From: Apium graveolens
Lineage: Eukaryota > Streptophyta > Magnoliopsida > Apiales > Apiaceae
DNA length: 64,000 bases
Direction: 5' to 3'
Assembly (NCBI RefSeq): GCF_009905375.1
Contig: NC_133649.1
Location: 222,905,372 to 222,969,371 of the forward strand
Of this stretch, positions 1 to 64,000 are shown piece by piece. The number at the start of each line of letters is the position of its first letter. Position 1 is the first letter of the stretch. A model generated the notes under the pieces. It was not told the DNA's origin. It was given only the letters and a program-made list of their open reading frames with translations, and ran no database searches. The position numbers and the translations under genes are program-made.

Positions 1-1
1 A

Positions 2-1471
2 AACATGGTGGACAAATCAAAGTTCAAATGTTACAACTGTGGCATTAGTGGACACTTTGCAAGTGAGTGTAGGAAGCCAAATTCTGAGAAAAAGAAATTT
101 GAGCAAGTTGATTACAAAAAGAAGTATTTTGATTTGCTTAAACAAAAGGAAAGAGCTTTTCTCACTCAAGATGATTGGGCAGCAGATGGGGTAAATGAAG
201 ATGATGATGTGGAATATGTCAACCTAGCCCTGATGGCTAATTCTGATGAAAATGAAACTAGTTTATCAAGCAACCAGGTAATTACTACTGATCTCTCTCA
301 GCTTTCTAAACATGAATGCAATGAAGCCATAAATGATATGACCAATGAATTATATCATTTGCGTGTTTCCCTTAAATCACTAGCAAAAGAAAACACTAGG
401 ATCAAGGAGAATAATGTGTTTTTAAGTGATAGGAATGCTGTGTTAGAGGATCAGGTAATTGAGCTTGAAAAGATGAAACTTAAATGCTTGACTGTTGAGA
501 GTGAACTAGCAGAAGCTGTTAAGAAAGTAGAAATTCTTTCTACACAGTTAGAAAGTGAGCAAGAGGTAATCAAGGCCTGGAAAACATCTAGGGATGTTAG
601 TGTTCAGATTGCAAAGGTTCAGGGAATTGAATCATTCTGTGAGGATGCTTGTAAGAAAAACAAAAAGGAGTTAGAATTAATTGATGGATTGTCAACGGAT
701 GTGGAATCAACGGATGATGAAAGTTATCCGTTGAAGGAAGAAAAGGAGCATCCGTTGAAGGCTCATCAATTAAAACAGGCAAGTTCTTTTAAAAATAAAA
801 GTCTCAATAAAAAGAATGATTCAACTCTCAAAAACTTTGTCAAAGAAGGAGCTAGCACATCCAGAGATGTCAGTAAGGTGAATATAGGACACATGACTTT
901 AGATCAGCTAAAAGATAGGCTTAAGTTGGTTGAGGATAAGAAGGAAACTAAAAGAAAATCTAAAAGAAATGGGAAGGTAAGGATTAATAAACATAACAAT
1001 TACACACCTGATAGGTATGCTCCTAGAAAAAGCTGTGTGCATTGTAAAAGTGTTAATCACCTATCTGATAATTGCAAATCTGTTAAAAATGTTCCCATGC
1101 CTTCAAATCCCTCCATGCCTAAAATGTCTATGTCACCTCTGCATGCTATGCCTGTTATGTCTCACCAGAATCCCCAAGCACATTTTGCAAACATGCCATA
1201 TGTTAACAATCCTTATTTTACTGCATTTAGTATGCCTCAAATGCCATACAATATGCCTATGTGGAATAACATGTTTGCACAACCTATGCCTTATCAAATT
1301 CAAACAAATATGTTAAATGATTCTGTGACTAACCCTACACTTCAACCAACCACATCTGAGACCAAGGGTGACCCAAAGTTACCTAAGTCAAAAGATGCAG
1401 GAGGAATGAAGTCTAGGAAAAAGACTAACAAGGCTGGACCCAAGGAAACTTGGGTACCAAAATCAACTTGA
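2..1471 (+). CDS. Gag (C-terminal part), family A
   Basis: The frame is open from the window edge to a TGA at 1469, so the N-terminal capsid part is missing. What remains has a first zinc knuckle of the CX2CX4HX4C type (CYNCGISGHFASEC) near residue 9, a charged coiled-coil-like stretch at about residues 110-190, a lysine-rich region, a second knuckle (CVHCKSVNHLSDNC) near residue 344 and a Met/Pro/Asn-rich tail ending in WVPKST. Gag packages the element RNA into cytoplasmic particles; the knuckles bind RNA. A linker near residues 230-250 encodes STD and YPLK/HPLK units that come from four copies of the family word. The pol frame starts 4 nt further on in another frame. Confidence 0.9.
   Translation, partial: NMVDKSKFKCYNCGISGHFASECRKPNSEKKKFEQVDYKKKYFDLLKQKERAFLTQDDWAADGVNEDDDVEYVNLALMANSDENETSLSSNQVITTDLSQLSKHECNEAINDMTNELYHLRVSLKSLAKENTRIKENNVFLSDRNAVLEDQVIELEKMKLKCLTVESELAEAVKKVEILSTQLESEQEVIKAWKTSRDVSVQIAKVQGIESFCEDACKKNKKELELIDGLSTDVESTDDESYPLKEEKEHPLKAHQLKQASSFKNKSLNKKNDSTLKNFVKEGASTSRDVSKVNIGHMTLDQLKDRLKLVEDKKETKRKSKRNGKVRINKHNNYTPDRYAPRKSCVHCKSVNHLSDNCKSVKNVPMPSNPSMPKMSMSPLHAMPVMSHQNPQAHFANMPYVNNPYFTAFSMPQMPYNMPMWNNMFAQPMPYQIQTNMLNDSVTNPTLQPTTSETKGDPKLPKSKDAGGMKSRKKTNKAGPKETWVPKST
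692..758. repeat. Family A word cluster inside gag
   Basis: TCAACGGAT occurs at 692-700 and 707-715, and its reverse complement ATCCGTTGA at 726-734 and 750-758. In the gag frame the forward word reads Ser-Thr-Asp and the reverse word reads (Tyr/His)-Pro-Leu-Lys. Confidence 0.95.
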
Positions 1472-1475
1472 TTGA

Positions 1476-4400
1476 TTTTGTTGTGTGCAGGGACAAAGAA
1501 GGAATCTATGGTACTTGGACAGTGGTTGTTCAAGACACATGACAGGAGATTTCACCCTGCTCACAGAGTTTAAGGAGAGAGCTGGCCCTAGCATAACCTT
1601 TGGAGATGACAGCAAAGGATTCACTATGGGATATGGCTTGATTTCAAAAGAAAATGTCATCATTGATGAAGTTGCATTGGTTGATGGTCTCAAACACAAT
1701 TTATTGAGCATCAGTCAACTATGTGACAGAGGGAATACTGTTTCCTTCAATTCTGAAGCCTGTATTGTCACAAGTAAAAAGGACAATAAAGTGGTTCTAA
1801 CTGGAGTTAGAAAAGGGAATGTGTACTTAGCTGATTTCAACTCTACAGATACAGAATCCATAACTTGTCTTCTCAGCAAAGCAAGTCCAGTTGAAAGTTG
1901 GCTATGGCACAAGAAGCTGTCCCATTTGAATTTCAAGACAATGAATGATCTAGTCAAAAAGGACTTAGTTAGAGGAATGCCTCTAGTGGAATTCACAAGG
2001 GATGGGCTGTGTGATGCTTGTCAGAAAGGAAAGAAAAAGAAAGTATCATTCAGTAAGAAGCTTGAATCTGCAATTGATGAACCACTACAACTTCTACACA
2101 TGGATCTTTTTGGACCAGTCAATGTATTGTCAATTTCAAGGAAAAGATACTGCCTAGTGATTGTAGATGATTTCTCAAAGTTTTCATGGGTTTATTTTCT
2201 TGTATCAAAGGATGAAGCTAGTGAAATCATCATCAATCATATCAAGCAAGTCAACAATCATCCTGATTTCAAAGTAAGGAATATTAGGAGTGACAATGGA
2301 ACTGAGTTCAAGAATTCAACCATGAAGTTATTCTGTGAAGAAAGTGGGATCATGCATGAGTTCTCAGCTCCAAGAACTCCACAACAAAATGGTGTGGTGG
2401 AAAGGAAGAACAGATCACTAATTGAAGTTGCAAGGACAATGCTTGAAGAGTCAAAACTCCCAACTTATTTTTGGGCTGAGGCTGTTAACTGTGCATGTTA
2501 CACTCAGAATATTTCTCTAATCAATTAGGCAAAATGCATGACTCCCTATCAATTATTCAAGAGAAGAAAACCAACTTTAAACTTTCTACATGTCTTTGGT
2601 TGCAAATGCTACATCTTAAGGAATCAATCTGATCACAAAGGGAAGTTTGATGCAAAGGCTGATGAAGGAATATTTGTTGGTTATTCTGCTGGAAAATCAT
2701 ATAGGGTCTACAATCTAAGAACCAACATTGTCATGGAATCTGTACATGTTGTGTTTGATGATAAAAAGATTGATGGACTAACAGATGAGGGACATCATGA
2801 AGGACTCAAATTTGACAACATTGAGATATACTGTGATGATAGTGAAAATGAGAATGATGAAGAAGGCATCTCAAGAAGAACTCAGAATCTGCCTTTGGAT
2901 AATGCACAGAATGCTGCATCCGTTGGAAGTCATAATTCAGTTTCCGTTGAAAGAAGCAATGCAGCATCCGTTGAAAGACAAAGTGCATCATCCGTTGAAG
3001 TTCATAATGAAGCATCCGTTGATCACAGTCTGTCAACGGATAATCAATTCACTTCATCAGTTGATAGAGCTCCCAATTCCTTTCAAAGGATCAACAACTC
3101 AGGGGGAGTTTCAACAAATCAACATTCTATCTCACATCATGACAATACTGAGGCAACCTCATCTAGGGCTAATCTACCACCTCAAAGGAAATGGACCAAG
3201 AATCACCCTTTTGAACTGATCATTGGTGATGCTACATCAAAAGTACAAACTAGAAGGGCTACTCAAGATGAATGTCTATATAGTAGCTTTCTATCACAGG
3301 AGGAACCTAAGAGAGTGGAAGAAGCTCTATTGGATCCAGATTGGATTTTAGCAATGCAAGAGGAGCTAAACCAATTTGAGAGGAACAAAGTATGGAAGCT
3401 AGTACCCAAGCCAAAGAACAAGAGTTCTATTGACACAAAATGGGTATTCAGAAACAAGATGGATGAAAATGGCATTGTCATAAGGAATAAAGCCAGATTA
3501 GTTGCTAAAGGCTATTCTCAACAAGAGGAAATAGATTTTGATGAAACATTTGCTCCAGTTGCCAGACTTGAAGCCATCAGAATCTTTCTAGCCTATGCAG
3601 CTAATGCCAATTTCAAAGTCTATCAGATGGATGTCAAGAGTGCATTTCTATATGGGGAATTGGAGGAAGAAGTTTATGTAAGCCAACCTCCAGGTTTTGA
3701 AGATCAAAATTTTCCAGACCATGTGTATTATCTGTTGAAAGCACTCTATGGACTAAAGCAAGCACCTAGAGCCTGGTATGAGACTTTGTCAAAGTTCCTT
3801 CTAGATAATCACTTCACAAGAGGTACTGTTGACAAAACTCTCTTCTTTAGAAATGTTAATGGCTCTAAGATACTTGTACAAATTTATGTAGATGATATTA
3901 TATTTGGATCTACAGATGATAAGCTTTGTAAAAAGTTTGCTAAATTAATGCAAAGTAAATATGAAATGAGCATGATGGGAGAGCTAACTTACTTTCTTGG
4001 TTTACAAGTTAAACAAGTTAGTGGTGGAATTTTCATTAGTCAAACTAAATATATTTATGATCTTTTAAAGAAGTTTGACTTAATGGATTGTTCACCTGCA
4101 AAAACTCCCATGGCCACTGCCACTAAGCTTGAATTAAACAAGGCTGAAAAGTCTGTGGATATTACAAGTTATAAAGGCATGGTTGGCTCACTTTTATATT
4201 TAACTGCTAGTAGACCTGATATAATGTTTTCTACTTGTCTCTGTGCTAGATTTCAAGCTGACCCTAAAGAATCTCACTTAGTGGCTATTAAAAGAATTTT
4301 CAGATATCTCAAGGGGACTCCAAATCTAGGAATTTGGTACCCTAGAGAGTCTGGTTTTGATCTAATTGGCTACTCAGATGCAGATTATGCAGGTTGCAAA

Positions 4401-4829
4401 ATAGACAGGAAAAGCACAACAGGCACCTGTCAATTTCTAGGGAACAAGCTTGTATCATGGTTCAGCAAGAAGCAGAATTCTGTTTCCACATCAACAGTTG
4501 AAGCTGAGTACATTGCTGCTGGTAGTTGCTGTGCACAGATACTATGGATGAGGAATCAACTATTTGACTATGGTCTGACTGTTGACAAAATTCCAATATT
4601 CTGTGACAACACAAGTGCCATTGCCATTACTGAAAATCCAGTGCAGCACTCAAGAACCAAGCACATTGATATCAAGTACCACTTCATTAGGGAACATGTG
4701 ATGAAAGGTACAGTGGAACTTCATTTTGTTCCAAGTGAAAAGCAGATTGCAGACATATTTACCAAGCCACTCGATGAATCAATATTCACAAGATTAGTAA
4801 GTGAGTTAGGTATGCTTAATTATTCATAA
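1476..4829 (+). pseudogene. Pol polyprotein, family A (one internal stop)
   Basis: One frame of about 1,118 codons encodes: aspartic protease (LDSG motif, 1515-1526); the GAG-pre-integrase zinc site with HKKLSHLNF and CDAC (about 1908-2030); the integrase core with its D, D and E residues in HMDLFGPV, RSDNGTEF and QQNGVVERKN (about 2098-2410); an acidic Ser/Asn-rich linker (2800-3200); reverse transcriptase with YVDDIIFGS (about 3885); and RNase H with [15 protein letters not shown] through TKPLDE (about 4370-4770). A single TAG at 2526-2528 interrupts the integrase C-terminal part, where a lysine codon is expected in LIN-AKCMTP. All visible catalytic motifs are intact, so this copy died recently or is only marginally defective. 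The frame differs from gag (+1), and no start codon is needed at the boundary. Confidence 0.95.
2918..3041. repeat. Family A word cluster in the integrase-RT linker
   Basis: Exact ATCCGTTGA lies at 2966-2974, 2990-2998 and 3014-3022, and TCAACGGAT at 3033-3041, with near copies at 2918-2926 and 2942-2950. Here the reverse word is read as Ala/Ser-Ser-Val-Glu, a different reading frame from its use in gag. The protein linker is repetitive as a result ([12 protein letters not shown]). Confidence 0.95.
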
Positions 4830-5264
4830 TCTATGTCATCTATATAATCTGTCTTGAAGCCTGAAATGAAATTTGCTGCAAGAACAAAGTTGGCTTTAAT
4901 TAAGACTTATCCTATCAACGGATATTCTCTATCCGTTGAAAGCCAAATTTGTTCTATCAACGGATATTCATTATCCGTTGAAAGACAAATACATTTCTGG
5001 TAATTTTATCCTTCAACGGATAAAATGGCGTTGTTCATCAACGGATAACTATTTCCCTTATCCGTTGAAGTGTCACGTCAGTTACTATAAGTGAGTCACA
5101 GCCATTGATTCTTTTACTCAACCATTGATATAGATATACAGTGTTGTATGTAATTGTATTTAAGGTAGTTTTCAGAATTTCTACAGTTTTCTTTGTTCTT
5201 GAACGGCTGTAACTTACCTAAAAGTATCATTTAATCATTTTATTTACGTTTTAATTCAAGAAAG
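4830..5264 (+). other. Non-coding gap between pol and ORF3, family A
   Basis: No reading frame is supported. The stretch holds three inverted pairs of the family word (4915-5068) and runs into a TATA box and pyrimidine-rich leader just before ORF3, so it looks like a promoter region for ORF3 rather than spacer. Confidence 0.7.
4915..5068. repeat. Three inverted pairs of TCAACGGAT / ATCCGTTGA
   Basis: Forward words lie at 4915-4923, 4957-4965, 5013-5021 and 5038-5046. Reverse words lie at 4931-4939, 4973-4981 and 5060-5068. Pairs 4915-4939 and 4957-4981 leave only 7 nt between the words, so the RNA or single-stranded DNA could form 9-10 bp stems; 5038-5068 forms a third, with a 13-nt loop. 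Confidence 0.95.
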
Positions 5265-5272
5265 TATAAAAG
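5265..5272 (+). promoter_or_regulatory. TATA box of a possible ORF3 promoter, family A
   Basis: TATAAAAG lies 100 bp upstream of the ORF3 ATG and is followed by a CT-rich leader (about 5290-5360) typical of plant 5' UTRs. Similar TATA-plus-CT leaders precede ORF3 in the C and B1 elements here. Promoter activity is inferred. Confidence 0.5.
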
Positions 5273-5371
5273 CCCAATTGAACTCTTATTCTCACTTTAC
5301 GCTTTCTTGCAATTCTTATTCTCTTTCTCTCTAAATTCTCAAGTTTTTCTCTGCAACCTCTACTCACAACA

Positions 5372-8300
5372 ATGGCACCAATAGTCAAAATTATGTCTCA
5401 AACATGATTTGTTTATGAAAAGAATAATTTCATAGCCTTGGTTGAAAATAATGAAGCCCATTCTGATTATCACAAGATGATGGACTTCATCAAAAACTGC
5501 AAACTAAGCTATGCAATGCTGGAAGCCCCAACCATCTACTGTGAGGTGATTGAGGAGATTTGGACAACTGCAGAGTTCAACTCCACAGATATGACTATTG
5601 CCTTCTCTCTCAAAGGTAAGGACTATTGCATTAATTGTGATGATTTACAATCTTACTTTAAGTTGCCTGAGAATACTGCCATGACACCACACACTGATAA
5701 AGATGTCTCTGTTATGCTAGATTCCATAGGCTATGCTTTTGATTCTGCTAGTTTGGTTAGTATTAGAAGGAAAGGCCTTATGAAAGAATGGAGTTTTCTT
5801 GGAGATGCCTTTATTAAGGTTTTCTCTGGGAAGATTAGCAATTTTGATGCTATCACTTCATCTCTTGTTAATATGCTCTATATGCTAATATCTGATAGGT
5901 ACTTTAATTTTAGCAACTGTGTTATGCTAGAATTAGGTTCCAGATTAGGTACTATGCTAGATTCTTTATGTTATTGGCTAACCATGTTGCTGAAGGTTTG
6001 GTTATATCCAATGAGAATAATAAACTCAAATGCTGGGCACAAGAAAAAAGGGTCCTTGTAGACCTTTTGAGAATGAACCTCAACAGCCAGGTGCCATTGG
6101 TATACTTGCCAATCATGAATGCACCACAGGTAAGTGAGGTAAATACTTCTATAACTCCTACTATTTCCAACCCCAATGTTTCTTTGCCTTCTAGTGTGGC
6201 TATGGAATCTGTGTCTTTGTCCAAACAGGCTCCTACCAAAGCCACCAAATCTAAAGTTTCCAAAGTCAAGTCAAAGAAACCTACCTCTGTTGTTTCTCAA
6301 AAGACAACAGTTGTAACAACTACCATAAACCCTGAAGGGAGTGAACAGGGTGTGATTGGTGAGGGGAGGGGTGAACATCAAAAAGCCCCCCAGGATAAGG
6401 TGGGAGAGGTGAGTGGTACCCAAACCAACCAAGCCACAGTCTCTCAAAAGACTGTGGTGGTTCAAAAGGAGTCCAGCACATCCCTAGTTGCATCCTCCCA
6501 AAAGGATGTAACTATTGAAAATAGTCCCCAACCAGGGACACAGAACAAAAGAGGGAGGGACACTGAAGCCACACATTCACCATTTAAAGCCTTTTCAAGG
6601 AAGAAGAAGGCCAAAACCCTAGTTTCTACACAAGGGACACACACAGCACAGATACATCCACCAGTATCTGTGCCTTCTCAAATCCAGCTTGATGTGATTC
6701 CAGCAAATGTGGAATCACAACCCCATTCTCTCAATATAGAAACACACCATTCATCAAACTCTCCAACACCCTCTCTGGATGTGGATATGATATTCACATC
6801 AATTCCTGATTCTCCCTCATTAAAACTCAGGGAGGAGCCCCACTCCAAACCTGATGATCATCATCTTTTAGATGATTTGTTGGATCATCAGCCAATTCTT
6901 TCATATATAGTTGAAGAATCTGTGTTACCTCACTTAAAATCAATCCACACAGATTCAACAATTATGTCACTTTCTATATCTACATCTTTTCCTTCCTCAA
7001 CGGATATCTCTCATCCGTTGACAAGTGGTTGTTCTTCAACGGATAAGCTTAACAGCAGTTATCCGTTGATACCATCAGTTTCTACTTCAACGGATACTCC
7101 CTATCCGTTGATGGTCTCTACACACTTAACAGACACAATTCCAACTGTAGAGGACATGTCAACTGTACAATCACTTTTAGGTTTGAGGGAAGGGAGTGAT
7201 CTTTTGAGTGAGAGGCTGGGTTGCTCCCAGGCAAAAGGAGAGGTTGAGAGTCACCAAATGCATGCTATTTCTTCCAGCATGGCAAAAGTGAGTGAGAGGA
7301 GTGCCACCTTAGAAGGTGAAGGTGAGGGTGTGAGGGTGTGTGTGAGCCAGGGGGAGCCCCTGATGCAAGAACAGAGAGAAATTGAGAGAAAGGCAGGTAC
7401 AGAAGCTATAAGGGTGGATCCAGCCATTGCTAGTGAGTTAATGAAAGTGGATGATGCAGATAAGGAAAGACAATTTCAGCAACATTACAAAGCTGTCATT
7501 GATAACATTTCCTTGGATGCTGACACTTTTACTCACCCTGCTTCAGCCTATCAATTATTGGCTGCACAGGGCAATGTGGAGGCAGAACAGACACTAGACA
7601 TTGTACATACTTCAGAATCTCTTCTCAGAGACAAAGCTGCTATCAACAGGCTGCCTTCTCAAGCTGGTGAGCTATCTGAAGAATTTGGAGTAAATTCTAA
7701 TGATGATGACTCTAATTCTTTGAATGAGAGCATGAACTTAGGGGGAGTAGCAGGCCCAAGTTCTGTTCCTGATCTTCCTGCATGGGCATGGGCAAAACCA
7801 TCAACACCAGGAGAGTTTGGCGTCACTTTGGTCAGACAAGTCATGACAATTCAACAGGCCCTTCAGGAGACTCAGGATGCTGGTACCAAGGCAATTCTTC
7901 AAGCTCATCTGGAATCTCTGCATCTCTTGCAGTTGCAGCATTACCAGCAAAATCTAAGTGTGGATGAGCTCAAGCTGGACATTGCTGATCTGAAATCCTA
8001 CAATGCTGAGAAATTGGATTCACTTATGCCCTATGGTACTATGCAAGATTTGTTGGGGAGACTGAGGAAAGCATCTGATGCTGACAAGAGGCTGGCCAGA
8101 TTGGAAGATAGGGTTCAAATCATTGAAGACTCTATGGTCACCATTCTTCAGAATCAACAAATCAAACAAATCTACTCATGCAGCTGGCACAAGCACAAGG
8201 CTTGACCCCTACCCTTGATGATAATAAAAAGGGGGAGAATAAAAGGGAAGGGGAAGGAGAGCCATCTACAACAGTTCAGATTTCTCAAGTGCTAGTTCCT

Positions 8301-9857
8301 GTCATCACAACTTCTCCAACTATTCAAGTCAAAGGAAAGCTAGAAGGAATTGATCTAATCCAAATAGCAGCAGCTGAATTGCAAGTCTAAGAGCAAAGGA
8401 AGAAGATTGATGAAAAGATGCAACTAATATTTGGTTCTACAACTTCTCAATCACAATCTGTGAAGCATAGCATAAAAGTGGAATCAATTATTATGGAACT
8501 CAAGCCAGTAGGGAGGCATAAGGATGGAGAAACTTCTTCCAAAGATCTGCAACCTATGGTTCTCAAGCCCAACAACAGATCCAATAAGGACTCTACAAAG
8601 AATCCTCTAAAAGAGGTGGATTTTCCTCTTCCAAAAGCTGATGAGGACAAGCTTTTAGGTAGAAGTATTGCATATCTCAAAGAGACCATGGATGAGGCTG
8701 TAAGGAGAAACATGGCTATTATCTTCAGAGAGGGAAAGAGCATATGTGTGATGCAAGGACATCTCAAATTCTCAATAGCCAAGAGGGAAGAAATCAAAAG
8801 GTTGAAGGAAGAAGCCAAACAGCTAAAGGCTGACAAAAGAGCACAAGCAAAGCTTGAAAAACAGCTAAAGTCAAGTCAGGCTGAAGAACAAAAAGAAATT
8901 GAAGACAAAGGTGAAGATGAAGCTATGGGGGACATGGTTGGTACTGAGATGGAGGAAAGAAGTAAGGAAGAATGGCAGAAAGGGAAAAGAAAGAAGGTCA
9001 ATACAAAGAGAAAGAAGGTAGATAAGACTGAAGAAACCCAATCAATATCCAAACCACTACCCTCTATTCCTGAACCAATTGTACCTGACCCCTTCATGAA
9101 TATTCATGGTGAAACAATCATTCCCAAGGAGGAACCAATTGATTGGGACACCATCAAATTGCCCACCTTCCTAACCTCTTCTCCACCATCAAAGAAGCAG
9201 AAAAGAAGAATCAAATCAACACCCTCTAAAGCCTCAATCAAATTCACACAGAAGCCTAAGCCTAAACCTCAAACCTCTAAAGATGATTATGTTCACATCT
9301 GTGACATAAAAGAATTTTCAGACATTGAACTCTATCTGGATGAGCTGGAGGATGTAAGGGGAATAGCTGCCTACAGACAGCTACCAGAAAGACTAGTGTT
9401 CAAATACAAAGGAGCTGGGGAAAGAACATGGCCTCTTCACAGAATTCTGAATGAAGGCTACTCTACCTTGATTAGAGTCTACTCAGCCATACAAAAGGAT
9501 TCTGGCTTTACCAGGACTGCCAAGACTGAGATTCTTAACAAGATTACCAACATAAAGAAAACTTGGAGGGAGCCCAATGCCTTGCCTAGAACTTTACTCA
9601 TTCAAGAAAGAGGAATTATAATTCACAAATCACCTCATTGGTTGATGGAGTTCAGAGACAACAAAGGAGTCAGAAGATTTTTCAGAATTGAAGATCAGCT
9701 AAAGATTGCCAGTAATGAAACTCTCAAAGATATGCAATCTAAGTTAGATATCAATGAAGAAGATGAAGCTGAATTCTACAGACAACTTCAACTTCAAATA
9801 GAGGAGAATGACAGGAGGCTAGGAAAGAAAACCAGGGATCAAAGGAAAAGAAAGTAA
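5372..9857 (+). pseudogene. ORF3 ('envelope-like'), family A, broken
   Basis: ATG at 5372 opens MAPIVKIMSQ. The product would be about 1,490 residues: a globular N-terminal part (to about 5960) also seen in B1 and C, a long Ser/Thr/Gln/Pro-rich middle, a Lys/Glu-rich coiled-coil-like stretch (about 8770-9040) and a conserved C-terminal part (about 9280-9800, around LYLDELEDVRGIAAYRQLPE). Lesions are TGA at 5405, a frameshift near 5945-5965, a frameshift near 8180-8205 and TAA at 8388. Sire elements are known to carry an extra ORF here, often called envelope-like. I see no convincing signal peptide, membrane segment or fusion peptide, so an envelope role is not supported by this copy. The function is unknown. 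Confidence 0.8.
6997..7111. repeat. Three inverted word pairs inside ORF3
   Basis: TCAACGGAT at 6997-7005, 7036-7044 and 7087-7095 is each followed by ATCCGTTGA at 7013-7021, 7061-7069 and 7103-7111. The arrangement matches that upstream of ORF3, but here it sits in coding sequence (STD...HPL, STD...YPL). Confidence 0.95.
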
Positions 9858-10034
9858 TTTGCTCAGGCTAAAGGAGCACCCTTGGAAACAATGTAATTCT
9901 TCAATTCCATCTCAGCATATACATTTTTGTAGCACTTTTGAATTTCTACTTTGTTCCAGTTTATATTTTTGTTAAGTGTTTTGTTATCATCAAGCTAAAC
10001 CCAAATTTATGCCTACAGTTCTAGTAGACATAAA

Positions 10035-10045
10035 TAGGGGGAGAT
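10035..10045 (+). other. Polypurine tract, family A
   Basis: AGGGGGAGAT directly abuts the TGTTAGGAAT start of the 3' LTR. Polypurine tracts prime plus-strand DNA synthesis. Confidence 0.9.
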
Positions 10046-10332
10046 TGTTAGGAATATGTGTATTAGTTTGATGATAAGTTAAGCAAAACACTTAAGTAGA
10101 AATCTAGTGTTTGTAGCCTCAACGGATAAGATCATCTTGGCTATCCGTTGAAGGAGTAGCTTTACTTAGCAATAAGTTTAGTATTGTAGCACATTTCACT
10201 CTCTGGTATCAAGCTGTAATTCTTAGATGTTGTTGGGAAATAATCAGTCATGTTGACTACTAATGGATGTACAAATAGGAGGGCTAATTGTAAATATTTC
10301 ATGCCTTGTAATTTTATATAAGTGAAGAAGTG

Positions 10333-10529
10333 TCAACGGATATTGAAGACCTTCAACGGATAAGAAACAAAGCCTCAACGGATGTCACTAATGCTTCAAT
10401 GGATAATATCCATCAACGGATAAGTGCTTCAACGGATAAAGACTTCAACTGATAATGCATCAACGGATAAACCTTCAACGGATAAAGCCTCAACGGATAA
10501 GGCATCAACGGATGAAAGCTTCAACGGAT
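10333..10529 (+). repeat. 15-22 bp direct array of the family A word in U3
   Basis: Ten exact TCAACGGAT copies start at 10333, 10353, 10375, 10413, 10429, 10460, 10475, 10490, 10505 and 10521, with one-mismatch copies at 10396 and 10445. All point the same way. Spacing tightens from about 20 to 15-16 bp along the array. It lies about 260-450 bp upstream of the LTR TATA box at 10785. Confidence 0.95.
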
Positions 10530-10784
10530 GCTTAGTTCATTAGCAGTTGATAGTGACAATTCACAAGCTGACAGAGGCACATGGATTGACAGAGACATAC
10601 TGGAATGTGGAAGCCTCTAGGAGGAATCAAGAAAATGCAGCATTTCCATTCTGATGCAAACAAGGAAGTATTCAAAGATTTACAGATTATCCTAGATTGC
10701 ATTGGATAGAGAAATGAAGAAGAAACATGTGAAGAATCTTTTCAATTGTATTTTACAGTTTGTCTTCACTTGTAAACTTGGTGT

Positions 10785-10792
10785 TATATAAA
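10785..10792 (+). promoter_or_regulatory. LTR TATA box, family A
   Basis: TATATAAA lies about 740 bp into the LTR, a usual place for the U3/R promoter. A weaker alternative, TATATAAG, lies at 10315, just before the word array. Confidence 0.55.
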
Positions 10793-11153
10793 CCAAGTAG
10801 CAGCTAGTAATTAGATATGAATTTTCCTTGAGCTGTTTAGAAATATCAAAAGAGAAAATAATCTAGTTTGTACTAGGAAGCAGCTGTGATTTAATTTTTT
10901 AAATCACAGATTTTCTGAAATAACACATCTCTGGTGGAACAACAAATCCACCAGAAAAGTTTTTTTTTAAGTTCTTTGTGTTCATTACATTTGTGTTTGA
11001 ATATATATCTGTCTGCATCAGCTTCAAGCAATTCACACACATTTGATCACTCAAACACTTAGCCTTAGAAACTGCTCAAAACTTGAAAAAGTTTTGAGAT
11101 TTACATTCAACCCCCCTTCTGTAAATCTCATTGTTAGTCCACTGGGAATAACA

Positions 11154-12400
11154 ACTATTTTGCTACAAAATTTCTAGGCTCTTTGTTGATAAAGAGCTTA
11201 GCTTCTTCTTGAGAGTGTTACAAGAAATTTGATCTAAATTATTACAACTGACTAAGGACCAGTGTTAACTTTATAACTCAGTTAACTGCTGGTTTACACA
11301 GTGTGTAATAAGACATGCTATTAGCTTTTCTAAATTGTCACTTGTCATTTCTATTTATAAAAAAAGTAGATCTTTCATTTCTGGCTTAGCATATCTTTAG
11401 CATCTCGTATTCACTTTGATCTTCCTTTTTCAGTTAATCTTTACCATTGATCTTGCACATTCTTCAAGCTGCTTTTTGTAGACTTGTCAATCTAGCTATT
11501 TGGATTGTTTGTTGATTGTTAATCTTGGATATTGAACTGATCTGCAACTTGTACTTTAAGATTTTACCTCGAGATCTCCAGTTTTAGGTCTATAGAGCAC
11601 CTGACATCTCGATAAGTATATTAGCTTATCGAGATCTCTAGTACTCTATATTTAGTTTGGCTTGTAGAGGTCTTCAGTTTTCTATAAGATAATTTTGGCT
11701 TGTCGAGATCTCTAGTTTTTACATCTTCACTTTGACTTATCGATAACTCTTAGTTCTCTAGTAGCTTCTTGACTTATCGATATCTCAGAATTCTCTAGTC
11801 AAATTTAACTTGTCGATATCTCAGAGTTCTCTAGTCAAAATTTAACTTGTCGATGTTTCTGAGTCTAGTGAATTTAGACTTATCGATATCTCTGAGTTCT
11901 CTAGTAGACTTAGACTTATTGATAACTCAGAGTTCTCTAATGAATGTAGACTTCTCGATAACTCTAAGTTCTCTAGTGAAGAAATGACTTGTCGATATCT
12001 CCAACCTTCATGTCTTCTTGACTTGTCGATATCTCACTGAGTTTTCTAGTAGCTTTCATGACTTCTCGATAAGCCATTCTGGAGTTCTCGAATGACTTCT
12101 CTATAACATTAAATCTGTGACTTGTAGAGATCTTGACTTAGAGTATTTTTCCTAAAACAGCTTTATTCAACTCCAAGCTTCTTCATAATTCTTCTTAGGC
12201 ATGATCTTCTTGATCTTCTTCCAGATAGAATTCTTAGGCTTGATACTGTTTATAGAAAAAGGCTCTAGTCTGCTCCTTTGACATTTTTACAGACTTTAAA
12301 TGTTACAAGTAAAAAATACAGATTAAGATAACAATACAACTTACTTAGGGTTGACAAAATGTCTTAGTCTTGTTAAAGTACAGGCATGTCTTTTACAACA
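11154..12400 (-). repeat. Family C LTR fragment (C'), cut by the A insertion
   Basis: It can be followed against the full family C LTR at 20368-21603 (shared AAGGACCAGTG, TTCTTCAAGCTGCTTTT and the GACTTrTCGATATCTC array), read on the minus strand. It ends TTTTACAACA at 12400, giving a TGTTGT start on the element strand. About 13 units of the C word lie between 11620 and 12130, roughly 30-35 bp apart. Its left part is beyond the A element, so whether it is a solo LTR or part of a longer copy cannot be told. Confidence 0.8.
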
Positions 12401-12409
12401 TATACTGTG

Positions 12410-29915: not shown

Positions 29916-29916
29916 A

Positions 29917-45407: not shown

Positions 45408-45455
45408 TGTTTGAGAGAAATGAACATATGTGGTTTTACTAATGAATGATCAGTC

Positions 45456-50173: not shown

Positions 50174-50185
50174 TCACAAATACCA

Positions 50186-52506
50186 CTAATGATTAGTTTT
50201 AAGGACCCAAACTTGCTTGGATCCTTTGGCCTTATTAAGTTTGTTAACATTTGCAGCGGATTTAGCATCAGAGTTTATGTTAACAGTTTTCTTATCAGAA
50301 TTTACAATATCAGACTTTGCATCAGTACTTACACTAGAAGGAATAATATTAACTTTCTTTAAAGAAGGTTTTATTTGATAATAATCATAGTACAAACTAT
50401 GATATTCCTTACAAGTATAAATGGAATGCCTTAAACTACCACAATGTAAACAAGGATTTTGTGGCCAATATCTAACAGACTGACTCTTAACTCCTGACTT
50501 TGAAGGTAAGGAATTTATGTTCTTATTCTTCCTGCAAAAAGAAGCTAGATGGTTAGAATTTCCACAGTTATAACATTTCTTTCTAGGAGCATTAGGAACA
50601 GGCTTATAATCATTGTTTTTATTCACACCTTCCTTTCCATTCCTATTTTTCCTAGGTGGCTTTACCGTTTACATTCTTAACATCTTTCAGCTTATGCTTA
50701 AGCTGCTTCTTTGTCATTAAGCCTATGTTTATTTCAGTTGGCTTATCCTGTTTTGGTTTGTCATAAGTTAATTTCTCTTTAACTTCTGATTTATCAATAT
50801 CAGACTTTACATCTACAAACTTAATAGGATTTACCTTGGGCTTTTGTTTAACAACTATAGGCTCAATTTCTATAGTTCCCTTATCATTCTTATCATCTCC
50901 ATAACCTAAGCCCTCTTTCCAATTTCCACTACTCAACAAATTTTGAGTTGTTCTGCCAGAGTTAGTCCACGTCCTGATAATCTCTCTTTCCTTTTCTAAC
51001 TCAGTTTTTAGAGATTCATTCATTTTAAGTACTTCATCACTAACATAAAAGGCATCATCTCTATCTTTCTGAGTTTGATGGAACCTGACTAACTCTTTTT
51101 CTACATAATCATTCCTCTATAAGCAAGATTTTCAGAAGTTAATCTTTCACATGTTAAAGTTTGATCTCTATAACTAATGAACAAGGTTTTAAGATATCTT
51201 CTCAACTCAGTAATATCATCAGTATGAAAGGCATAAGTAGTTTGAGGTACCTTTAACTCAGCAGCATCAGAACTGCTATCAGCATTTGCCATTAAGGCAT
51301 AGTTCACCTCACTTTCAGAATCTGAAGTGTCTGTCCAGCTTTCCTTCTTTGTGACAAGAGCCTTGCCTTTGTCACTCTTCACTTTCTTGCAATCAGGAGA
51401 TATGTGGCCTTTCTCACCACAGTTGTAGCATTTGACATTTGAGTAATCTCCTCTGTCAGACTTTCCTCCTTTGCCTTCAGATTTTCTGAAACTCTTCTTA
51501 TCAGAACTTGCACATTTCCTGGAAAATTTCTTTCCCTTTCTGAATTTCTTGTATGCAATCCTTGTGATTCCTTTCACCATAAGAGCACACAGCTTTATCA
51601 TCTCTTCATCAGTATCCATCTCAGGTAAGCTTTCAGTTTCTGAGTCATCATCACTATCAGAACTTGATGACTCAGTATCAGACTTTGTGATGAGAGCTTT
51701 TCCCTTACCTTTTCTTGAGGTAGCTACTTTGGGGACATCCTCCTCATCCTTAAGAGCAACTTTCCTTGACTTCCTTCCATTCCTCTTGCTTCTTTGTTCC
51801 ATCTCAAGTTCATGAGTCTTGAGCATCCCATAAATTTCATCAAGAGTTGTTTCATCAAGAACATGGTTTTCTCTTATAGTGGTGGCCTTCAAATCCTAAC
51901 TTTCAGGAAGAGCTAACAGGAATTTAAGATTTGAATCTTCAAGTTCATATTCCTTGTCCACCAGTGACAGATCATTCAAGAGTTTGACAAATCTATCATA
52001 TAATCCAGTTAATGACTCATCAGGTTTTGAGTCAAAGTGCTCATACTCTTGAGTGAGTATAGTCCTCCTGTTCTTCCTAATTGAATCAGTTCCCTGACAT
52101 CTTGTTTCCAAGGCATCCCATATCTCCTTTGCAGTCTTGCAGTTGATTACCCTGTTTGACATGACATTATCAATGGCACTATGCAGCAAATGTCGTACCT
52201 TTGCATCCTTAGCAATAGATGAGATATCTTCAGCTGTATATTCACTTTTTCCTTTGAAACTGTCTATGCTGGCTGATCTGCAACTAAAACAGAGAGCTTG
52301 GTTGGCTTGTGTAGTCCTTCATTGATTCTGTCAAGGTATTCTGGATCTGTAGCATCCAAAAACATAGACATCCTCACCTTCCATATGGGATATTCAGATG
52401 GTTTCAGTATGGGAACTCTAATAGTCTCATATCGATTATGGATTTGAGTCTTTGGAGGTTCTTCAGTTTTGGTGGGCTTGGTTGGAGTTTGTTCTTCTTC
52501 AGACAT
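50186..52506 (-). pseudogene. Gag, B2, broken
   Basis: ATG at 52506 (MSEEEQTPTKPTK). Capsid-like blocks at 52200-51900 (AKEIWDALETRCQG). The first knuckle is intact near 51430 (CYNCGEKGHISPDC), the second near 50570 (CYNCGNSNHLASFC) and the third near 50460 (CLHCGSLRHSIYTC). It therefore shows the three-knuckle Gag that has decayed in B1. Lesions are a stop and frameshift near 52240, TAG at 51896, and frameshifts near 51110 and 50650. The last stop (50186) is followed in the same frame by another stop and then by the pol frame. Confidence 0.9.
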
Positions 52507-52548
52507 GATTGTTTTTGGATCTTAAACTGTTTGTGTGTTAACAGATCT

Positions 52549-52560
52549 GCTCTGATACCA
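52549..52560 (-). other. Primer binding site, B2
   Basis: The minus strand reads TGGTATCAGAGC, a perfect 12-nt match to the initiator-tRNA-Met site, two bases from the LTR. Confidence 0.95.
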
Positions 52561-52562
52561 CT

Positions 52563-52794
52563 TGTTAGGTCACACAAACTATAGAAGGGGGTTGAATACA
52601 GTGTTTACTACAATCATATTGAATTAAAGAACACACGTAACATAACACAGGTTTTATTCAACACAATAAACTCTGTTACAATATGGAACTGTCCTCTCTC
52701 AGTGATGAACAAATTATCACGAGAGCTGCTAGGGTTACAATGAATAATAACTTCGATAATGATAACATGTATAGTGTAAACCCTATGCCTGTGT
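52563..52794 (-). repeat. 5' LTR of B2, first 232 bp, interrupted by B3
   Basis: TGTTAGGTCACAC onward aligns with the start of the 3' LTR at 41278, with about 16 differences in 232 bp by eye. It stops at CCTGTGT, where the B3 LTR begins. The remaining roughly 370 bp should lie beyond the right end of B3, outside the window. Confidence 0.9.
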
Positions 52795-53386
52795 TGTTAG
52801 GTCACACACACTGTAGAAGGGGGTTGAATACAGTGTTTATCACAATCAAATCGAATTAAAGAACTCAAGTAACAGAAAACAAACTTTATTCAATATAATA
52901 AACTCTGTTACAATATGGAACTGTCCTCTCTCAGTGATGAACAAATATCACGAGAGCTGTCAGGGTTACAATGAATATTATTCTCGATAATGATAACACA
53001 TATAGTGTAAACCCTATGTATGTGTTTTTATACTACACAGTTATAATATAATCATTAATTGATATGGAATATAATTCTGCTTCCTAAATTATATCAATCA
53101 AATATCTTTTCTTCCAAGTATTCTATTCTTCATAGAATTTCTTCTTCATGTATATCTCTTCTTGCATTTGTCTTGATCTTCTTTCCTTTCAATTAGCTGC
53201 CTTCCTTATCCGAAAGTCTTCTTAAGTCCTGATATTATCTCCTGATAACTTAAGTTCTGACAACTTAAGTTCTGACTTCAGTATAAGTGCTGATTTCCAG
53301 TTAAGTACTGATTTTTCCTGTTTAAGTAAGATCTAAAAACTAAACACAAATTATATTAGATATGACATTATCAAATATATCTAACA
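52795..53386 (-). repeat. 3' LTR of the B3 left arm (592 bp)
   Basis: TGTTAGGTCAC to ATATCTAACA on the plus strand, followed by the polypurine complement. It begins inside the 5' LTR of B2. Family B words of the AGTTCTGA type lie at 53220-53310. Confidence 0.95.
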
Positions 53387-53400
53387 ATCTCCCCCAACTT
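53387..53400 (-). other. Polypurine tract, B3 left arm
   Basis: The minus strand reads AAGTTGGGGGAGAT next to the LTR, as in B2. Confidence 0.92.
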
Positions 53401-59287: not shown

Positions 59288-60651
59288 TTTTTGTTCTGAT
59301 ACATCAGACTTTATGATCAGTGTTTACATATATTACATCTTTGTATATTATGTGCTTAATTTGAAATTTGCTTAAGTGCTGATTGTTGTCTGATGTGAAT
59401 TTCTAAACTCTGATAGTGATATGAATGTATCTGTGACTATTCAATCCAATGAGGATAATTGTGCTAGATGTTGAACTATTAGTCTTTAATATACCAAAGA
59501 TCCCATGTTTGAAGTAATTGTTTATGTGGAAATCTTTTAACACAAGCAAATTCTGATATTGAGCTTAGTTAAGTTTACTTTGTGCATCTTATTACTAAGT
59601 CAAAAACTAGAATAGTGCTTCTTATCTGTTAAGTTCCGATGTTAGTAAATCTGGTGGATGTACTAAGTGCTGATAAGCCTCACTTATCAAAAGAAAAAGA
59701 AAAGGAAAGAAATAAAAATCAGGTACTCCTTTGAGATCTAGAGTAAAAATGTGGAAGGGAAGACCCAAGTGCATTGCTGGTATTAAGTAATATGCATTAG
59801 AAAAGCAAAATAAAAAATTTCTTGGTGACTTTTCACACTCTATGATTACTGGAGAAATACTCTGATAGCAGCATAAATTTTGATAAGCAGTCGTGACTCA
59901 CTTACACCGAGAAGCCACTGTAAAATAGAATTTCAAAAGATGCATAAAATGAGCACAAAATAGTTGAGGTGGACTCATGCATGAACTCATTCAATAGTAG
60001 ACTTCAGAATAATGACAGATTTCAAGTAAAGTTCTTAGTTATGCCTTATTTCTAAGATGTACTGAAGTGAATCAGACTTTACTCTTTGTCTGATATTTAG
60101 CTTAATGCACACACTTACACTCCATATGAATTACGAAAATCATTGTGGTGATCAATGTTATTTTAGATGAACAGTCTATGTGTCAGATTGCATAAATTCT
60201 GAGGGCAAGTTCTGATGGAAGTTCTGATGATTAAGTTCTGATGAGACCATATCCGTATTTGTGTGAAGAATTACAGGAATACACATTCACTTTTCGAGTT
60301 ACGGAGCCATATTCTGATGACTTTTAATTCCTGATAATTATCAAGTTTTGATGCTTACGTGGCAGTATTTATTTACTTGGTTTATTTTTTGTCATTACCT
60401 GAACGATGATATTTTTACAAAATATTGGTTAATGTGAGATAAAACAATCATAATCATTATGGGTTAGTGGTTAGCGTGTATGTCTTGAAAACCTGCATAC
60501 GCACAGTAATTATTATCATATCCCGTGCCCATTAACTCTGGCTTTAGATCTTTTTATTGACTGTTATTATTACACATCAGTCTAGGGAGTCGAGGGCTCA
60601 TTATTCTTGTAATTTTTAACCAGTCCTCGCGTCCCTTGGTATTCTATTGGT
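59288..60651 (+). other. Non-coding pol-ORF3 gap, B3 right arm
   Basis: Mirror of 55671-56929 and homologue of the B1 and B2 gaps. AGTTCTGAT occurs twice near 60207-60235, with further TTCTGATG copies to 60320, about 330-440 bp before the TATA-like box. No frame is supported. Confidence 0.75.
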
Positions 60652-61000: not shown

Positions 61001-61262
61001 TCGTTAGGTATTCGTAGACTAGGACTAAGGCTGTTGATGTTGGGAATCGTAGAATAGGACTATCTTGTAATTTTTGCATGTAATTGATCAATTTCATCGA
61101 ATGTAATCATCTGATATATCAATGAAATTTTCTTTAATTGCAAGATTTGTTCTTTGTTTCTCAAATTATATGATTGTGCATGTTTACTTAAAATTTGTTA
61201 ATCTTTACTTCATCGACTTTTAATTTTATTTTGTGATGAATGTTTTGATTAAATTCTGTTGA
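61001..61262 (+). other. Non-coding stretch between small ORF and ORF3
   Basis: AT-rich, no frame, closely shared with 44880-45160 in B2. It ends TTGATTTGAG before the ORF3 frame opens, which could be a splice acceptor. Intron status is inferred. Confidence 0.45.
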
Positions 61263-63956
61263 TTTGAGAAAACAACCGAGGAACAGGTTTCCACTTCAAA
61301 ACCTGTTGTTGTAGAAGCTGAGAAGGTTTCTTCTCAAAAAGATACTGTAACTGGGAGTTTTAGGCCCCTCAAAAGGCTTAGAAAGTTAAATTCTGATGAT
61401 AAAGCTCCTACAGTGTCTCCATCTTTGAAGAAGATAAAGAAACAGAGAGCTCATAGGGACATAGTTGAGTCAGATTCAGAGGATGTAGTGGAAGCAGCTA
61501 AGGAAGGGGATCAGGAATCTCTGATCTCAACAAAACCTATTGTTATTGAATTACTTCCTTCTGCACAACCAGAAACTGCACAACCAGAAACTGCTCAAGC
61601 TAAAATACCTACACCTCCTATGTCACCTATAGTTGATCCAGTACATACTAAAGAACTAGGTACAAGTGCTGAAATTGATATTCATAACTTGACTGTGCTT
61701 GAGGTTTTGTACTTGGAAGCTCCACCAATTCAACTCACTCCACCAACAATATCAATTTTGGATGTTGATCAGAACCTGGCTGCAGATCAGAATTTAGAGG
61801 AAGAAGTTGAAGCCTCTATAGCCTCACATACTGCTGTTTTATCCGAGGATGTTGATACTGCAGGCTCTACAAGTTATGATGCTGCCAATGAAGAAACTAT
61901 CGGTGAAGCTGCTGCTCATTTAGATGCTGCTGCAGCTGGTCCATGAGGACATGCACCTCAACAAACTGTTCATAAAGCTGATTTAGTCAGGAAGTTTGTT
62001 ACAGGGGAAGCACCAGTACCTTGGAGTGAAACTCCTAGAGGAAAGGAGTGGACTAAAGAATGGAACTCAGTTAGTTTTGTTCCTTCTGAAAAGATTCTTG
62101 CTGAGCATCTTGCAAAAGCTGATGAAATGCTGATAAATGATGATTTCAAGGCACAACTGAGAGTTACTGCATTAAGTACAAGGCACCTTCAAGGTCAACA
62201 CTCAATAACTCATGACAAGGTGAACAAAATTCAGGAAGCTCTGATCCAGAAAGATATGAATGTGAAACTTGAAAAGAACAGATTTTTCAAGCCAGCCTTT
62301 GACAGAATTGCCAACATTGAGAAAACTCAAGAGAAGCAACAAGCTCAGATTTCTGAAATTCTAAAGAATCAAGCTTCTCACCAAAGTCAACTCAATGAGA
62401 TCCAATCCTCAGTGGAATTGCTTATCTCTCTTCTTTCACCTGCTGATGCCAAAAAGAGGGAGAAAGTGATTAAGTCCAAATACAAATCTATTCAGACACT
62501 GAAAGCAAAGGATGATGGAAATGATGACCAGGGAAATTCTGATAAGGGTAGAGGTCAAGGTCAAGGCAAAGGATTTTCATCAAGTAAAGATAGAATTACA
62601 AGTCAAGGAACAAGTTCTGATACTGGGAGAAGAATAAGTTCTGATACTGGTAAAATGATAAGTTCTGGTGAACATCTGAAACTTGATGAAGAAATTTCAA
62701 AACAGTTATTTCTTATAGAAAATCCAGGAATGGACTTTGAGAGTCTAAAGGAAGATTAAGCTAGACTCAAAGCAGAAGGTTTCAAGACAAAATCTAAAGC
62801 TTCTGTTTTTGAAAAGAAATTTACGAAGCCTAAGGGTATTGTGATAAAGGAAAGAACAAGTCCTGAGGCAACCAAGGCCAAATCACAAATGGAAATTGAT
62901 CCAAGGTCCAAGGGCAAAGAAAAAGTTGATGAACCTGTAAAGGTTTATATGCCAGTCATGGATGAAGAAATAAGTGATGATGAAGAAGATACTAGTCTTA
63001 CTCTGATTTCAAAGAAGATTTCTCAAACAACCTCTGACATGGCTCATGTTGTTCAGAGTCAAGATTTAGTAAGTTCTGATATGACAGTGAAGCAAGCAAC
63101 CTCTGACTTAGCTCAAGTTGGCTTGATATCATAAGATAATGAAAAGGAAACTTCTGACATTGCTCATGTTAAACCTTCAAAGATACTCCTACCAGGATTC
63201 ACCAAAGCTAAACAGGCTCAACCTTTGAAGACTGCAACAAGTGGTTTTGAAGCAAGAGTTGTTACAGGAAAGGAAGCAAGAGATAAATATGGGTTGGGTA
63301 GTTCTGATGAAAGAAGAGTACATAACACTACCAATGATACAACTTCCTTAAGTGAACCAGGTGCTGGAGCAACTCCTGAAAGATCGAATCGACTTGAATC
63401 TGTACAAATGGTTTACCATACCTTCTTGAAAGAGCATATCTTGTTATATTTTATGACAGATGGAAGGGTATACCAGATTAAGCAGAATGCTATACCACTG
63501 AAGTATTTTGAGGAACTGGAACATGTTCTATTCCTACTTCAAGTGTAAGACAGATTAACAGATAGTGCTGTAGGGTATTTAAAGTCTCAAATTCAAAGAC
63601 AGAAGAAGCTTTATTCTGTAAAGTTTGATAACACATACTATCCCAAGTACAGAGATTATAAAGGTGATATTGTCGATATGAATCCTAACTATGCTAAGAT
63701 TATAACTACTTTTCTGGGTTATAAAGCTGTGGAATTCAATCTAGAGTCTGACAAGGCATATCTGATAAGACTAGATCAGGAGATAAAAAAAGCTAAGATA
63801 AATGATCTCAGAGCATCTATTTTTCAAACGGGAGAAGTTACAGCTGAATTGATAAATGCTAAAAGGAGGATGGTCAATGAACTTGAATATGCAGAGAGAT
63901 GTTTGTTGAAGAACTATCTCAGAACAACTCCTAACATCAAAGAGATCAGAAATTGA
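61263..63956 (+). pseudogene. ORF3 (middle and C-terminal parts), B3 right arm
   Basis: One frame throughout, with only four stops (61944, 62757, 63132, 63546) and no obvious frameshift. Order: EEQVSTSKPVVVEAEKVSS, KKIKKQRAHRDIVESDSEDV, acidic part, RHLQGQHSITHDKVNKI with coiled-coil (62180-62430), Gly/Ser/Lys part, DEEISKQLFLIENPGMDFES, MDEEISDDEEDTSLTLISKK, LLYFMTDGRVYQIKQN and FLGYKAVEFNLESDKAYL, ending IKEIRN. It retains the section deleted from the left arm. The 3' LTR should begin about 180-200 bp past the window end. Confidence 0.85.
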
Positions 63957-64000
63957 AATTGAAGCCAAGTCAAAGATCTACACTGCTTAAATATGAAGTT

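Follow-up and report, generated by a model that had tools for sequence, protein, structure and literature searches.

Family-Private Short Words Upstream of the Long Terminal Repeat and ORF3 Promoter Candidates of Three Nested Sirevirus-Type Retrotransposon Families in Celery

Introduction

A 64,000-nt stretch of celery DNA (Apium graveolens, contig NC_133649.1, positions 222,905,372 to 222,969,371; hereafter the window) is filled with nested plant retrotransposon DNA, in which three families of Sirevirus-type Copia elements, here called A, B and C, each repeat a short word of their own. The words cluster upstream of the TATA box of the long terminal repeats (LTRs) and again upstream of a box that precedes ORF3, an extra open reading frame (ORF) lying after pol in the position of an envelope (ENV) gene. 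The observation is real and well above chance, and corresponds to a mostly known architecture with informative additions. Judging from sequence comparison, the words are probably family-specific cis-regulatory binding sites, equivalent to the boxes of repeated motifs (RMs) that a 2010 study reported from other Sireviruses, here mostly in forms other than the CGG-CCG palindrome.

Each of 13 Sireviruses carries a repeated motif in 8 to 32 copies, nearly all of these motifs being different (Bousios et al., 2010; PMC2829016). RMs precede the TATA box inside the LTR, and the nine elements that have ENV carry them before this gene as well; they coincide with CpG islands, and an internal ENV promoter was suggested (PMC2829016). 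Published RMs are palindromic, with a CGG-CCG core in 12 of the 13 elements (Tnd-1 lacks the core), and two elements have extra copies at the start of ENV (PMC2829016). An earlier note on this DNA had drawn attention to the architecture; the layout is present here, and its outline is already contained in that work. The 2010 paper left open what RM boxes bind, what ENV/ORF3 does and in what way it is expressed (PMC2829016). In the window, three families share one genome and carry three private words at matching positions; one of them (A) permits a coding-level test of the maintenance of a DNA word, and homologues imply a change of the word as a set, so that a concrete question becomes testable, namely which protein, host-encoded or ORF3, tracks the word.

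Each Family Repeats a Word of Its Own

In family A, represented by a single copy in the window, the 9-mer TCAACGGAT occurs 33 times exactly between positions 692 and 10521 (21 copies on the forward strand and 12 on the reverse), against 0.08 expected under an order-2 Markov model, and is absent from the remaining 52,850 bp of the window. In 100 simulated A-like sequences no 9-mer reached more than six copies and, with at most one mismatch allowed, 41 sites are found in A and a single one outside it. This recount is identical to that of the earlier note, which had reported 33 exact words on both strands, none elsewhere in the window, and a chance expectation of about 0.1. Words are densest before ORF3 (12.9 per kb) and in the LTR (10.9 per kb), versus 1.66 in gag-pol and 1.34 in ORF3, and the clusters (Table 1) recur about every 2–3 kb along the element. 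Within clusters, a word spacing of 15–16 bp recurs. The flanks of the words are 0.289 identical between clusters and 0.343 within clusters, compared with 0.262 for random sequence; because the flanks of different clusters are near-random, no long blocks carried the words from one cluster to another.

Family B repeats AGTTCTGAT, of which 31 exact copies, all located between 29349 and 64000, are found where 1.5 are expected, and none outside B. In three separate parts taken from the B block, the top 9-mer is in every case either AAGTTCTGA or AGTTCTGAT, in 11–12 copies against a simulated maximum of 7. The B word contains no CpG and is degenerate: AA[AGC][TGC]TCTGA[TC] has 106 matches, 104 of them in B, and the form found in the LTRs, ATCAGNACTTA, has 26 matches, all in B. 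Exclusivity is imperfect, as AAGTTCTGA occurs 33 times in B and once in C. For family C, the unit CTTRTCGA is found 22 times in C, divided equally between CTTATCGA (11) and CTTGTCGA (11), and nowhere in A, B or the stretch 12401–20370. The C unit is a near-palindrome, GACTTMTCGAKAAGTC, complete before ORF3 but for the most part reduced to half of its size in the LTRs, and the units form repeats of about 36 bp. Here too exclusivity is imperfect (TTATCGAGAA occurs seven times in C and twice in B), and no exact C 9-mer beats the simulation (7 copies versus a maximum of 7). The words attributed to B and C before this analysis are the ones recovered here. Thus, all three families reach at least eight copies of a word, with placement before the LTR TATA box and before ORF3, if one counts 33 for A, 31 over the four copies of B (7–8 each on average, more with variants) and 22 over two LTRs and one internal region for C.

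The Words Cluster Upstream of Two Candidate Promoters

Distances from the words to a TATAWA box were worked out by hand from their positions. In A, the words lie 256–452 bp upstream of the LTR box (plus a pair at 634–666 bp) and 197–350 bp upstream of the box before ORF3. The corresponding distances are 187–261 bp (LTR) and 260–429 bp (ORF3) in the B copy B1, 191–297 bp in the LTRs of B2 and B3, 319–651 bp in the C LTR, 250–714 bp in the second C-type LTR, and 351–468 bp before the C ORF3, where one additional unit lies 19 bp from the box. The interval of roughly 200–580 bp upstream of both TATA boxes that had been given for the three families is therefore about right, the measured clusters extending from 187 to 714 bp. 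The presumed ORF3 start codon follows the box after 107 bp in A, 145 bp in C and 160 bp in B1. In B2 and B4, TATTTAAA stands in place of the TATA-like box before ORF3, and in B2 and B3 the words before ORF3 are altered.

By hand count, the two upstream zones hold 19 of the 33 A words and about 10 of the 31 exact B words, most of the remaining A and B words being located in coding linkers. The earlier note had seen words in the coding linkers of both families, which is confirmed (14 of the 33 A words fall in gag, pol and ORF3), and had described the placement as fixed; the same two upstream sites do recur in all families, but they are a preference rather than a rule.

Family A Keeps Its Word as DNA

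The 14 coding words of A are distributed among the gag linker (4), the linker between integrase and reverse transcriptase (RT) in pol (4) and the middle of ORF3 (6). All six forward words are read as S-T-D, and the reverse ones as Y/H-P-L in gag and ORF3 and as [AS]-S-V-[ED] in pol, i.e., in another frame. Throughout the open stretches 1–1470, 2529–4826 and 5914–8202, every ACG codon (6 of 6) and every CCG codon (5 of 5) belongs to a word, and TCG is unused. Since two reading frames are used and the ACG and CCG codons of these stretches occur only in words, the A word is kept as DNA rather than as peptide. The CpG content of the element points in the same direction: of 43 CpGs in A, 35 lie in word sites (exact or with one mismatch), and the eight others, five of which fall in the stretch before ORF3, compare with 391 expected (observed/expected ratio 0.02). 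This ratio is 0.15 in B and 0.64 in the stretch 12401–20370. Such a pattern suggests that the A words are either selected, or shielded from methylation-driven decay, or both. In the LTRs of the two other families, the word columns are also better conserved than their surroundings, with 48 of 50 columns identical among three B LTRs versus 379 of 503 elsewhere (p 0.0002), and 63 of 72 between the two C-type LTRs versus 620 of 955 (p 2.5e-5).

These data bear on the simplest alternative, in which tandem duplication and slippage would have multiplied the units as a neutral by-product, the coding copies being low-complexity peptide repeats. The 24-bp spacing in pol and the 15–16-bp spacing in the LTR do look tandem, flanks are more alike within clusters than between them, the C units form their 36-bp repeats, and 33 of 34 forward coding copies in B share one frame. 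On the other hand, neutral multiplication does not readily yield identical A 9-mers in five distant clusters with near-random flanks, on both strands and in two frames, nor CpGs retained almost only in A words. It is already disfavoured for A, and for the words as a whole we regard it as quite improbable.

ORF3 Homologues Imply Joint Changes of the Word

The homologues of the A and B ORF3 products are mostly unnamed or hypothetical plant proteins, with relatives in Heracleum, in Daucus and in A. graveolens itself, where identity is 95% across half of a piece and 97% across a short segment. Alignable relatives of the A protein contain up to three forward-reverse peptide pairs at the same place. 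Two unnamed proteins (P0032 and P0033) share with A the combination of STD and HPL/YPL. In many relatives from celery, HPS is accompanied by PMD, SMD or PTD; some sets (P0057, P0059, P0060 and P0068) are mixed. A protein of carrot (P0054) shows three pairs of STD and HQL. In the Heracleum relatives (STK/STV/IPL), no clear forward-reverse word pattern was seen. The unmixed peptide sets correspond to what a single 9-mer and its reverse complement would encode, the predicted words being TCAACGGAT, [TC]CGAYGGAT and TCAACTGAT.

The first base of the forward word (deduced from residue S or P) agrees with the base after the reverse word (from an ANN- or GNN-encoded residue) in 38 of 40 informative pairs, namely 19 T/A and 19 C/G against one T/G and one C/A, 27 of the 67 rows being uninformative; the Fisher p of 6e-9 ignores descent. 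Word type tracks the ORF3 tree: about four changes are needed over 16 proteins, the minimum being three. A blind search, from the protein alone, for the 9-mer that best explains the linker was applied to 15 hand-picked segments; it returned TCAACGGAT alone for A, P0032, P0033 and P0060, TCAACTGAT for P0054, and CCGATGGAT for P0053 and P0070.

The words deduced for the A lineage (TCAACGGAT, TCAACTGAT and [TC]CGAYGGAT) differ by one to three bases, and a hypothetical [TC]CGACGGAT would yield two words of the lineage, each through loss of one CpG, so mutation may account for some of the word change. The argument that different words speak against common descent fails within this lineage: words one to three bases apart that follow the ORF3 tree leave stepwise change by descent possible, and only the words of A, B and C, compared with one another, look unrelated. 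In the rest of the earlier interpretation, one dominant private word per family at two shared upstream sites is supported, as is, in A and its ORF3 homologues, a word kept as DNA while its flanks diverge. Family B does not bear the interpretation out as stated: nearly all of its coding copies share one frame, those before ORF3 show no measurable excess of conservation over the sequence around them, and most exact B words fall elsewhere than in the two zones.

What May Read the Words

Under the binding-site reading, a sequence-specific DNA-binding protein would recognize one short word per family, and copies would be maintained upstream of the LTR promoter, which gives the gag-pol RNA, and of a probable internal ORF3 promoter. 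In A, copies would also be kept in three weakly constrained coding linkers, giving a cluster every 2–3 kb, and the effect would be activation or protection from silencing. Protein binding to the word, promoter function of the two boxes and an effect of this kind are inferences from the sequence. Behind these steps stand the enrichment, exclusivity and placement of the words, their occurrence on both strands and, in A, in two frames, the CpG retention in A words, and the joint forward/reverse change in homologues, all observed directly. A protein reading the word in either orientation explains all clusters. Because the A clusters are spaced 2–3 kb apart, an effect on the whole element would fit better than one on two promoters alone.

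Several results weigh against the binding-site interpretation. The evidence from A comes from one copy in the window. As word type follows the ORF3 tree, the 40 covarying pairs amount to few independent events; moreover, the blind search found the expected word in 7 of 15 linkers, and shuffled sequences equalled its score in 0–6 of 60 trials for those seven, a figure that rose to as many as 53 of 60 for other linkers. Before ORF3, the B words are not better conserved than their surroundings among B1, B2 and B4, B3 having been left out (41 of 49 columns identical versus 292 of 387, p 0.13; strict word, 19 of 23 versus 314 of 413, p 0.33). The B coding copies, being in nearly one frame (33 of 34 over 16 open pieces, mostly [NSTK]SD), may be peptide-driven, so B gives no evidence for DNA over peptide, and about 21 of the 31 exact B words are found elsewhere than in the two upstream zones. 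Finally, TATAWA is common in this AT-rich window, at roughly one match per kb on each strand, which makes each single box weak evidence; the promoter reading therefore rests on the joint arrangement.

Formation of RNA or DNA hairpins, with the inverted pairs serving as stems of small interfering RNA precursors or of cruciforms like those of maize Sireviruses and the word itself being incidental, would account for some of the same features. Relative to shuffled controls, folding is much stronger for the A sequence before ORF3 (4905–5050; z -9.2) and for the A words within ORF3 (z -8.8), and to a lesser degree for the C region before ORF3 (z -2.8). The gag words, two forward and then two reverse, could pair, and stems would likewise show joint forward/reverse change. 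Palindromes in maize Sirevirus LTRs are, in addition, hotspots of small RNA (sRNA) mapping (PMC5311732). However, the A LTR cluster consists of direct repeats and does not fold (10390–10535, z +0.39, with 127 of 200 shuffles folding as well), the LTR cluster of B1 reaches z -1.4, and stems require complementarity, not one identical word in five clusters. Short-range pairing thus explains a part only, RNA hairpins do not explain the A LTR cluster, and hairpins as the reason for the words seem rather improbable to us.

Two further explanations are sub-cases of the binding-site reading and their odds overlap with it. In the first, each family would exploit a different host regulator, perhaps a MYB protein for A, and would contribute no factor itself. 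Use of host factors is common among LTR promoters, and CAACGG in the A word fits YAACKG, the consensus of MYB sites, as well as AACGG, the core found in mitosis-specific elements. Promoter-only use by host factors leaves the words in the A gag, pol and ORF3 linkers unexplained, as it does the change of the whole word set within one lineage, and the deduced word CCGATGGAT has no MYB core. On the side of host factors, a search of RMs in the PLACE database gave mainly stress-related sites (PMC2829016). Host transcription factors as the sole readers are a possibility to be taken seriously, if short of probable.

In the second, ORF3 or another element-encoded protein would bind the family word and remove silencing marks from its own family, as VANC proteins do for VANDAL transposons. 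The words are private to each family despite one shared nucleus, they extend over the entire A element, and in A their CpGs have been retained although almost every other CpG was lost; VANC21 and VANC6 recognize different words of 8–9 bp that are enriched in their own families (PMC5735166). A self-encoded system is conceivable but unlikely. Its most specific version, in which ORF3 would be a fast-evolving word-binding protein and the class I counterpart of VANC, with the word placed at both promoters and throughout the coding linkers of its family, binding every 2–3 kb keeping the element unmethylated and word and protein co-evolving, is a little more doubtful still. If true, co-evolution of word and protein would separate families within one genome, and the "env-like" ORF3 would gain a nuclear role.

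Searches with ORF3 brought no recognized DNA-binding family in Pfam and no such fold by Foldseek against the PDB for its domains. The three open pieces of the A ORF3 had no Pfam match at E ≤ 0.1, and the AlphaFold2 models of the C-terminal (pLDDT 72) and N-terminal (pLDDT 83) domains no significant Foldseek match in the PDB. In one homologue alignment, two Pfam families appeared with one member each, which are probably gene-model fusions; none appeared among the 27 members of the other alignment. Relatives were also sought outside plants. Three viral contigs contain TCAACGGAT-N7-ATCCGTTGA, each with just that one inverted pair, which was taken as chance, and a pol search of viral contigs found no relative among its 10 pattern matches. 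In bacterial and archaeal contigs, an RT alignment gave 15 Copia loci in metagenome-assembled genomes, too distant at a best identity of 41%; two of these RT loci (L004 and L005) come from a cyanobacterial assembly (Trichormus) and are likely contamination from a plant host.

Relation to Known Systems

Compared with published RM boxes, the A word fits in part. It is a non-palindromic half-site that forms CGG…CCG only when paired, is direct in the LTR and forms inverted pairs elsewhere, and its distribution departs from the published one in that 14 of 33 words lie in gag, pol and mid-ORF3 coding linkers (PMC2829016). The B word has no CpG and is non-palindromic, and the C unit is a TCGA-centered near-palindrome, nearest to Tnd-1; neither shows the CGG-CCG core. 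The accessible text of the 2010 paper makes no mention of words in gag or pol coding linkers (PMC2829016). Among the literature matches listed, consisting of titles and abstract openings with few subscription papers, no report of retrotransposon coding-linker words or of a retrotransposon-encoded word binder was found. Within that material, three additions have no counterpart: the A coding-linker words in two frames, the confinement of A CpGs to the words, and the ORF3 peptides implying other words that change jointly.

Palindromes of the maize Sirevirus LTR cis-region were reportedly treated by Bousios in 2016, in Genome Res 26:226. Like the celery words, these palindromes are motifs in a fast-evolving LTR regulatory region; they differ in being sRNA mapping hotspots (PMC5311732), whereas the A LTR cluster is direct and unfolded. 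The VANDAL/VANC system of Arabidopsis shares family-private tandem words of 8–9 bp that diverge between related families and a candidate role in protection from methylation (PMC5735166, PMC10398659), and the A, B and C words are family-private short tandem motifs as well. Yet VANDALs are DNA transposons with a known self-encoded binder and motifs in non-coding DNA (PMC5735166, PMC10398659).

Organization of the Window

The assignment of A, B and C to Sirevirus-type Copia retrotransposons is based on three features. The polypurine tract AGGGGGAG of A, located at 10036, has extra copies at 3101, 7349, 7740 and 8230, and a terminal GGGGGAGATTGTTA is also present in B2 and B3; no intact terminal polypurine tract was seen for C, and the 3′ ends of B1 and B4 lie outside the window or were not identified. 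The polyC integrase signal near the 3′ end of the LTR is CAACCCCC(C)TTCT at 11110 in A and at 29885, 41307 and 52824 in B, and ACCCCCCCC at 20412 in the C LTR. ORF3 pieces in A, B and C represent the extra ORF after pol that many, not all, Sireviruses have. The octamer AGGGGGAG occurs 14 times in the window, often within ORF3 or pol linkers (also at 33782, 33969 and 39343) and not just near the 3′ LTR.

Element A has an in-frame stop in pol at 2526–2528. Family C, on the reverse strand, extends from ORF3 (about 26534 down to about 22000) to a partial pol reaching about 29345, these borders being set by eye, at which point B1 is inserted into the C pol. Family B is present as four partial or full copies, B1 to B4, which are 86–94% alike in long aligned blocks; the B1 LTR is 78–80% identical to those of B2 and B3.

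Table 1. Elements, word clusters and candidate promoter features in the window.
Feature	Position	Strand	Details
Element A	1–11150	+	gag, pol, ORF3, then polypurine tract and 3′ LTR; 5′ end missing, 5′ LTR outside the window
A words, gag linker	692–758		4 exact: 692+, 707+, 726-, 750-; STD/STD and YPLK/HPLK codons
A words, pol integrase-RT linker	2918–3064		4 exact, 3 with one mismatch; mostly 24 bp spacing
A words before ORF3	4915–5068		7 exact: three inverted pairs (gaps 7, 7 and 13 bp), one single
A candidate internal promoter	5265–5371	+	TATAAAAG and pyrimidine-rich leader, 107 bp before ORF3 ATG at 5372; from sequence only
A ORF3 (env-like position)	5372–9857	+	Broken; open pieces 5408–6061, 5914–8205, 8391–9857
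A words within ORF3	6997–7111		6 exact, three inverted pairs; STD...[HY]PL
A 3′ LTR	10048–11150	+	TGTTAGG...TAACA; preceded by AGGGGGAG at 10036; end set by eye
A LTR, two further words	10119+ and 10143-		
A main LTR cluster	10333–10529	+	10 exact direct copies, 15–16 bp apart where tightest
A LTR TATA box	10784–10792	+	TTATATAAA
Second family C-type LTR	11151–12400	-	Abuts A, cut by element A; blastn match to C LTR; borders by eye
Second C-type LTR units	11609–12073	-	13 matches, two being both strands of one site; TATA-like box ~11359
Family C LTR	20371–21605	-	Ends set by eye
C LTR units	20997–21329	-	Six of GACTTGTCGATATCTC type; TATA-like box 20678
C region before ORF3	26535–27160	-	Palindromic TTATCGAGAAGTC units 27030–27147; TATA 26679; ATG 26534
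B1	from 29349	+	5′ LTR 29349–29915
B1 5′ LTR words	29422, 29438, 29468, 29486	+	ATCAG[AG]ACTTA; TATA 29683
B1 cluster before ORF3	36619–36788	+	AAGTTCTGAT and variants; TATATATA at 37048; ATG 37208
B2	41278–52795	-	3′ LTR 41278–41892
B2 3′ LTR words	41708–41811	-	TATA 41514
B3	from 52795	-	3′ LTR 52795–53395
B3 3′ LTR words	53223–53312	-	TATA 53032
B4	to window end	+	
B4 tandem words before ORF3	60207–60242	+	Three AAGTTCTGAT, 12–14 bp apart

The 5′ module of ORF3 in B2 (45168–45407, reverse strand) and B4 (60734 onward, forward strand) differs from that of B1 (37208–38155, forward strand), with upstream flanks that are alike; it consists of a short ORF after the TATTTAAA box and is broken by an in-frame stop in B4. 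Sequence comparison indicates that the start of ORF3 is exchanged within family B. The ORF3 region of B1 also contains, at 39490–39890, a CpG-rich insert of about 400 bp that repeats CGAGCCGAG and has inverted TGTAATTCG and CGAATTACA at its ends, and is probably a non-autonomous mobile element of small size. A broken gene at 15700–18300, flanked by the two C-type LTRs, resembles by eye a FAR1/MULE-type transposase.

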